Origin: Rhodopseudomonas sp. AAP120
Lineage (GTDB): Bacteria; Pseudomonadota; Alphaproteobacteria; Rhizobiales; Xanthobacteraceae
Direction of reading: 5' to 3'
DNA length: 43,754 nucleotides
Assembly: GCF_001295845.1 (NCBI RefSeq)
Contig: NZ_LJIC01000199.1
Location: forward strand, 1-43,754
The notes under the pieces are model-generated. The model had not been told where the DNA came from and did no database searches. It saw only the letters and a program-made list of their open reading frames with translations. Below, in pieces: positions 4,624-6,333 of this stretch. Position 1 is the first letter of the stretch. Each line of letters begins with the position of its first letter. A program made the translations under genes and the position numbers.

Positions 4624-6333
4624 TTACTTGACGTCGAACTTGTAGGAGGCCTGCAGGAAGCTGCCGTAGCGCTCGACGCGGATCGGCAGCAACTGCGTGG
4701 GCACCGGGCTGCCGAAACCCGCCGTCTCGACATCGGTCGCCCACATCGCCCAGTAGCGGCCGCCGACACCGACGTTGAAATTCGGCGTCACTTCGTAGCT
4801 GAGGATCGCTTCCAGCTGCACGCCCTGTCCGACGCCCCAGGCCGGCGAATCCTTGACGCCGACGTCGGTCCTGTTGTGATGGATGTCGAGCGCCGAGATG
4901 TGGGTGTAGGGCAGGTAGGCGGCGTCGAGCGACAGCTTCGCTCCGGGCGCTACCGTCAGGCTGCCGTTCGCGCCGATCCGCAGCGAATGCCAGTCTTCGT
5001 TCTGGGTGATCGCGATCTGGTTCGTCGGAAATGGCACCGAACAGGGTGAGGCAAAACCGACCAGAGCGATCTGCTCGCAACCGAAGGAATCCTTCCGGTC
5101 GCGGTAGAAGTTGTAGCCCGCGAATATGCCGAGCTTGCCGGACGCATGACTCACGAGGTCGATGCCGGCATCCAGGGTCGCGTAGGCGATCGTGCCGGTG
5201 ACCTTGGCGTGCGACGTGTTTGAATACGCCGCCGCGAAGTCGGGATCGGTCGGGAACCAGTCCTCGTCGTTCATCTTCCCGGCGACCAGACCGCCGCCGC
5301 CGGCGAAGCCTTTCACGAACAGCTTGCGCGGACTGTCGATCCGCCAGAACACTTCGCCCGAATGCCCCTCGCTCTCGTAGGTGAGACGGGAGACGAGATG
5401 GTTCTGCTGCGCCGTGATGGTGTTCAGCGTGAGGTCGTTCTGATAGCGCCCGTGGCTGTACCAATAGCGCGCGCCGACGTCGACCTGCCACCCCGACCCG
5501 GAGGGCACCGGTGCCGTGAGCGGGAGAAAACCGACCGCTTCGTCGGCGCCAGCGGGGCGGCCGAAATAGTAGTTGAGACCGAGCTTCACCAGATGTGCGT
5601 CCTGCCGGGCGCTGGTCGGCGAGCCGAGCGTGTTCTGCAGGCTGGTGATGTCACCAGGGGTCTGCAGAATTCCGCCGCCAGGACTATCGATCCCGCGCGT
5701 GCCGAAATTGGCGTAGTCGTATTCGGCGCGGACCGCCCAGCGCGACGACAGCGCATGCTCGATGCCGGCGCCGACGGTCCAGCCCCACCGGGTCGCGTTG
5801 AGATTCGTGGCGGGCTGCTCCAAGTAGTCGGACGCATTGGTGGTGATCGTCAGGTCGCCGACCAGAAACGCCGCGCCGCCTTTGACATAAACCAGCGAAC
5901 GTCCCTGTGGCCCGAACGCCTGTCCGAACCGGCCGGTGAGGGTGCCGATCGCGTGTTCGCGCACACGGCAGTTCGCCGACACGAAGTGACCCGAATAGGC
6001 CAGGCAGGTATCGGTGCCGTCGGCATCGAGCGCCGTTGCATCGACCTCCACGCCGAGCACCCAGGGCGAGCCCGGCAGCTGCCAATTATAGCCCGCCTGC
6101 AGGCCTCCGAGGGCCTTCGGGACTCTCACCGTATCGCCGTAGATCGAGGGGCCGTAGGGATTGTCGACCTTGGTGGTTCCATATCCGGCGCCGAGATGGG
6201 CGCCGAGATAAAAGCCGGTCCAGTTCCAGGCGGCATTCAGGGGAGCGGGCGACGGGCGCGCGATATCCGATGCCTGGGCGGCGCCGCAGGAAGCGGCCAG
6301 CGCCGTGGAGAGACCGATAATGGATTTGCGCAC
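4624..6333 (-). CDS. Outer-membrane protein: OMP25-like barrel fused to omptin-like protease domain
   Basis: This 569-residue protein has a signal peptide (about 1-22, ending AQAS). Residues about 30-260 form an OMP25/opacity-type barrel (WNWTGFYLGAHLGAGYG to LGLNYYFG). Residues about 280-569 form a second barrel that resembles omptins. DEDW with Asp356 and Asp358 matches OmpT Asp83/Asp85, and DIH with Asp483 and His485 matches OmpT Asp210/His212. The spacing of 127 residues between the pairs is the same as in OmpT. The chain ends in a barrel-type strand, SFLQASYKF. GTG at 6333 is chosen for its GGGGGAA upstream; the upstream ORF extension lacks a signal peptide. The first barrel is certain; the omptin assignment comes from motif and pattern only. 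Confidence 0.82.
   Translation of the reverse strand: MRKSIIGLSTALAASCGAAQASDIARPSPAPLNAAWNWTGFYLGAHLGAGYGTTKVDNPYGPSIYGDTVRVPKALGGLQAGYNWQLPGSPWVLGVEVDATALDADGTDTCLAYSGHFVSANCRVREHAIGTLTGRFGQAFGPQGRSLVYVKGGAAFLVGDLTITTNASDYLEQPATNLNATRWGWTVGAGIEHALSSRWAVRAEYDYANFGTRGIDSPGGGILQTPGDITSLQNTLGSPTSARQDAHLVKLGLNYYFGRPAGADEAVGFLPLTAPVPSGSGWQVDVGARYWYSHGRYQNDLTLNTITAQQNHLVSRLTYESEGHSGEVFWRIDSPRKLFVKGFAGGGGLVAGKMNDEDWFPTDPDFAAAYSNTSHAKVTGTIAYATLDAGIDLVSHASGKLGIFAGYNFYRDRKDSFGCEQIALVGFASPCSVPFPTNQIAITQNEDWHSLRIGANGSLTVAPGAKLSLDAAYLPYTHISALDIHHNRTDVGVKDSPAWGVGQGVQLEAILSYEVTPNFNVGVGGRYWAMWATDVETAGFGSPVPTQLLPIRVERYGSFLQASYKFDVK

Follow-up and report, generated by a model that had tools for sequence, protein, structure and literature searches.

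Descriptions of omptins mostly present them as single-barrel proteases of bacteria infecting animals or plants; their catalytic residues, an acidic pocket and an LPS site are conserved (PMC3048539). In OmpT, mutation of the four catalytic residues abolishes activity, and the dibasic specificity is set by Glu27, Asp208 and Asp97 (PMC11410778). Multi-barrel outer-membrane proteins have been described as a class (Solan et al., 2021, PNAS). One survey lists, as TC 1.B.72.2.3, an alphaproteobacterial fusion of 577 aa that joins a Brucella-Rhizobium domain to a PomS/T domain with limited similarity to omptins, and it also reports a 1086-aa TPR plus PomS/T protein (Reddy and Saier, 2016; PMC4827864). 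Among the literature matches listed, we found nothing on the catalytic residues of such fusions, on a change in their specificity or on four-barrel chains.

The window, by which we mean the whole 43,754-nucleotide stretch of DNA analysed, carries the gene studied here (Table 1). From its computed sequence relationship, residue conservation, architecture and predicted fold we infer, with a probability of roughly 0.65, that it encodes an outer-membrane chain of two barrels. The second barrel would be an active endopeptidase at the cell surface, working by the omptin mechanism with a non-dibasic preference, and the first would anchor, position or partner the protease or aid its folding.

As judged from sequence comparison, the gene is conserved. 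The source genome is Rhodopseudomonas-like, and the closest named relatives of the 569-aa protein come from six Rhodopseudomonas loci (75-82% identity). Substitutions relative to the copy at L003 show a third-position bias (201 of 321 fall at third codon positions), and DUF815 and LysM/M23 neighbours are shared by all six Rhodopseudomonas loci (6/6). In the window the copy is flanked by DUF815 and the LysM/M23 gene and adjoins yajC-secD, and its start position is common to most relatives. The same neighbours were not found beside L009-L012. Judging from its relatives, the host looks like a free-living phototroph. Its genome holds three copies of the C-terminal module: the window gene, a fused paralogue on C227 and, on C149, a longer chain of some 1000 aa. 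The C227 copy lies near HSP90, CrtC and a periplasmic binding protein, and the C149 copy lies beside DctP/DctM and an FKBP isomerase. Gene context was considered as a clue to the substrate and set aside, as nothing is common to the neighbourhoods of the copies. A phage origin was likewise rejected, as a PHROGs search to E 0.01 had no hits. The four matches in an NCBIfam scan of the protein were weak and fell well short of their cut-offs; a promoter scan found none, and Rfam (gathering scores) and tRNA scans of the window returned no hits.

Table 1. Features of the two-barrel gene, with positions in the window and the basis of each assignment
Feature	Position	Strand	Details or basis
Whole gene	4624..6333	-	569 aa, GTG start; stop 4624-4626
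Putative signal peptide, residues 1-21, cleavage after AQA	6271..6333	-	Sequence read by eye
N-terminal 8-strand OmpA/Omp25-type barrel, residues 34-258	5560..6234	-	Pfam OMP_b-brl; model strands 40-57 to 239-256
Linker between barrels, residues 259-280	5494..5559	-	AlphaFold2 model, partly low confidence
C-terminal 10-strand omptin-fold barrel (predicted), residues 281-569	4627..5493	-	Pfam, profile matches, predicted fold
D356-E357-D358, corresponding to the OmpT Asp83/Asp85 pair	5260..5268	-	Profile alignments, family conservation
D483-I484-H485, corresponding to the OmpT Asp210/His212 dyad	4879..4887	-	Profile alignments, family conservation
A481 at the OmpT Asp208 (S1 pocket) position, acid lost	4891..4893	-	Family alignments

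The Pfam Omptin model (PF01278) scores the whole protein at 20.4 bits, below the cut-off of 22.6, and residues 281-569 alone at 22.6 bits (E 6.6e-5), exactly at that cut-off; the paralogue in the same genome passes it with 26.1-27.4 bits. Single-sequence searches of the PDB matched no omptin. With a 9-row profile of the domain, and hits accepted up to E = 1, the PDB yielded OmpT alone (E 4.8e-5), with the DxD and DxH motifs in register. The family set comprised 98 domain hits, 93 of them distinct, from which 77 were kept (>100 bits, at least 240 residues, non-identical). As reference we took L014-L016, three true omptins that PF01278 finds in the same bacterial family. Profile-profile comparison of the 77 relatives with these omptins gave a match of 95.9% (E 5.3e-9), in which DxD and DxH are aligned. 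The N-terminal barrel profile served as a control and reached 5.1% against the 77-relative family (E 0.0076, 23 columns) and 14% against the true omptins (E 0.002, 27 columns). By these comparisons the omptin relationship of the domain is more than chance. The omptin match that the earlier note expected from PF01278 is therefore present, at the Pfam cut-off for the domain and clearly by profile-profile comparison. In a quick tree, a long branch separates the module family from the true omptins.

The same note had described the chain as an OMP25-like barrel, or porin, fused to an omptin, with two full barrels in all. Its Omp25-type assignment stands, as the N-terminal part matches Pfam OMP_b-brl (E 2.7e-19) and has eight predicted strands; a classical porin it is not. 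The full-length AlphaFold2 model, built with 11 sequences, places eight strands at residues 40-256 and ten at 282-568, with the fourth of the ten split in two. The best full-length model has a pLDDT of 74.2 and a pTM of 0.68, and the other four have pLDDT values of 38-58. A model of the C-terminal domain by itself (12 sequences) also has ten strands, with a pLDDT of 87.6 and a pTM of 0.82. The structure modelling thus returned the two separate barrels that had been proposed, and the chain is predicted to be a multi-barrel outer-membrane protein with two complete barrels. That confidence is confined to the best of the five full-length models counts against the protease reading, and it is also what could be said for a single larger barrel formed jointly by both parts. 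Such a joint barrel seems hardly credible given that the best model resolves into an 8-strand and a 10-strand set with a linker, that the C-terminal domain is predicted to fold alone, that 31 of the 77 relatives have no detected second barrel and that the order of the two parts is swapped in L020.

Foldseek searches of the PDB ranked OmpT or Pla chains first to eleventh, for the full-length and domain models alike. Omptin chains matched the domain model with E-values from 7.3e-14 to 5.6e-10 and Foldseek TM-scores of 0.72-0.82 on target length. The next match, a Legionella porin (E 9.2e-7), fell behind the last of the omptin chains by about three orders of magnitude. In the predicted 10-strand barrel, strands 3 and 7 end with DEDW and DIH, respectively.

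The catalytic residues of omptins were recognized correctly at the outset: D356/D358 and D483/H485 align with the OmpT pairs, and all four are present in 72/77 relatives (49/53 after thinning to <70% identity). In the looser set they occur in 74, 79, 76 and 75 of 93 sequences, with gaps counted as misses. The four residues rank 11 to 28 of 288 columns by conservation, and the loop 2 and loop 4 stretches around them have mean conservation of 54% and 47% (limits hand-drawn from the model). Besides the tetrad, G352, E357, T373, G500 and G502 stand out in these loops. A wide range of residues occurs between D and H, and E stands between the two D in 70/77. The spacing between the motifs, which had been offered as further evidence of an omptin, does not help. 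D358 and H485 are indeed 127 residues apart in the window protein, but the DxD-DxH spacing ranges from 119 to 157 across the family and is exactly 127 in only 4/72, so the value is coincidental and carries no weight.

The main rival to a working protease is that the barrel is a catalytically dead omptin fold used as a porin, an adhesin or a structural protein, with the tetrad retained because it stabilizes the protein or binds a metal or ligand. Conservation similar to that of the tetrad is seen at other loop positions (E357 in 70, T373 in 72 and C431 in 72 of 77), so conservation alone is no proof of catalysis. Part of the tetrad is absent in 5/77 relatives, some weaker matches lack it, and the Pfam score of the whole protein is under the cut-off, all of which count against the protease reading. 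The profile seeds (A3) were all tetrad-bearing and favour tetrad-bearing relatives, so tetrad-free ones may be under-counted. A similar fusion was placed among the PomS/T general porins in the 2016 survey (PMC4827864), and PomS is an anion-selective porin (PMC3561449). Loss of the acid at the Asp208 position, described below, would also suit a dead enzyme. We nevertheless regard this alternative as unlikely, though it deserves serious attention, because the tetrad ranks so high within loops that are mostly variable, the residue between D and H differs among relatives, and omptins precede porins among the best PDB matches.

Two further observations concern individual relatives and residues. The weak-matching relatives L069-L075, L086 and L087 have no tetrad and are possible porin-like or dead cousins. 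In loop 3, the cysteines C419 and C431 (window positions 5041-5079) are both present in 59/77 relatives, and a disulfide between them in this extracellular loop is possible.

The specificity pocket has changed. At the position of OmpT Asp208 the window protein has A481, and the acidic feature of the S1 pocket is missing. Across the family this position is G, A or N in 74/77 and D in 1/77, in a row without the tetrad; none of the 72 tetrad-bearing relatives has an acid there (0/72). D is retained in L014-L016, the true omptins used as reference. A candidate for Glu27 is D300 (D in 59/77), although the register of strand 1 is ambiguous. The Asp97 position corresponds to N372 or T373 depending on register, with D at column 372 in 14/77 relatives and at column 373 in none.

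With the Asp208-position acid absent in all 72 tetrad-bearing relatives, classical dibasic specificity is not expected, and the loss suggests a substrate preference that differs from OmpT's for dibasic sites. A classical omptin that cleaves dibasic sites, with an N-terminal barrel simply added, would share the fold and the tetrad, and D300 in place of Glu27 or the occasional D at the Asp97 position (under one of two registers, and not in the window protein) could be cited for it. We consider it very improbable, given the Asp208 column, in which the sole D belongs to a tetrad-free row, the retention of D by the true omptins of the same family and the long branch that sets the module family apart. 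The module has an omptin-like core but lacks this one omptin feature, and it is therefore not filed as a classical omptin. It also follows that an active enzyme could still give a negative result in an assay with dibasic peptides, since the Asp208 acid is part of the dibasic pocket.

We counted genomes carrying the module with the C-terminal domain profile, including the source genome in each count. It was detected in 14/16 genomes of the genus, 43/149 of the family (E 1e-10) and 62/397 of the order (E 1e-8). In the wider samples it occurred in 2/289 genomes class-wide and in 11/299 phylum-wide (E 1e-6), two of the latter outside the class. The Pfam Omptin model itself identified 11/149 genomes of the family.

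The 77 domains occur in several architectures. Most are 8+10 fusions (43) or have no detected second barrel (31); the remaining three are a four-barrel chain, a domain that follows a long N-terminal part and a reversed fusion, L020, a minus-strand ORF of 596 aa with the omptin-like barrel first and the 8-strand barrel second. In the quick tree, six architecture labels (including true omptins) required 8 changes, compared with a minimum of 5 and a shuffled mean of 30, and the starred branches alone force 3 changes for the fusions. These label changes suggest that the module was probably joined, freed or moved several times. By sequence, it has probably been shuffled among positions, standing alone, second, first or inside four-barrel chains.

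The domain preceded by a long N-terminal part lies in a 1115-aa open frame (L057:155-3499, minus strand), in which weak TPR matches are followed by a middle part without assignment and then the omptin-like domain. A BcsC-like label for this frame was discarded, as Pfam gives only TPR-type and YfiO matches, all under their cut-offs. By description only, it resembles TC 1.B.72.2.4, and the match to the 1086-aa TPR plus PomS/T protein of the 2016 survey is likewise one of description. In a Hyphomicrobium, two fused genes stand in tandem (L011:4001-7538), and L077 likewise holds a tandem pair.

The longest chain in the source genome is the C149 copy (L056:2764-5835, plus strand), in which OMP_b-brl was detected three times and the omptin-like domain is third in order. 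Four-barrel chains of this type were identified in 13 genomes: 5/16 of the genus and 9/149 of the family sample, with the source genome in both. The barrel order is 8-8-10-8 in ten and 8-10-8-8 in three, as assigned by our own profile; Pfam scans of three of the chains left the omptin-like domain unnamed. The homologues are 40-78% identical to the source-genome copy over the aligned parts, and DED and DNH are kept in 13/13. One genome (G142) encodes a true omptin (L014) alongside a four-barrel omptin-like chain (L160).

A wider proposal, to which we give even chances, is that the family is an omptin-fold protease clade with a new, non-dibasic specificity, found mainly in one alphaproteobacterial order. 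Its domain would act as an exchangeable module in multi-barrel chains, including the conserved four-barrel form of about 1000 residues in both barrel orders, with one barrel as the enzyme and the others holding or feeding it. For the window protein, the preferred protease reading supposes that the secreted chain forms two separate barrels in the outer membrane, first the 8-strand one of OmpA/Omp25-like type and then the 10-strand one with the omptin fold. The Asp-Asp pair in loop 2 would then lie opposite the Asp-His dyad in loop 4 and activate water. If active, the protein would be a tethered outer-membrane enzyme, and its relatives would offer a natural case of barrel-insertion machinery handling up to four barrels per chain as well as a family suited to tests of what the omptin specificity pocket means.

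The fusion had been suggested as possibly novel, but a two-domain fusion of such description has been in print since 2016 (PMC4827864). The window gene likely belongs to the same family as TC 1.B.72.2.3, with which it shares an N-terminal OMP_b-brl domain, a C-terminal domain of limited omptin similarity and a similar length; the two were matched by description and length only. TC 1.B.72.2.3 differs in being classed with PomS/T, with 12 predicted strands, and catalytic residues are not mentioned in its section of the survey (PMC4827864). MnoP-type fusions (OMP_b-brl plus OprB), for which Rhodopseudomonas is named, similarly join an Omp25-type N-terminal barrel to another barrel in alphaproteobacteria, but their second barrel is an OprB-type porin (PMC4827864). 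With the multi-barrel proteins of Solan et al. (2021) the chain shares more than one complete barrel, as predicted here. With the omptins OmpT and Pla (PF01278) it shares a predicted 10-strand fold, the Asp-Asp pair, the Asp-His dyad and their loop positions. The module differs from them in that many members are fused to at least one 8-strand barrel, the Asp208 acid is lost, the Pfam score is only at the cut-off and the family forms a separate clade. The omptin fold and its catalytic residues thus appear here within two- and four-barrel chains, with a changed specificity pocket, in an apparent phototroph.
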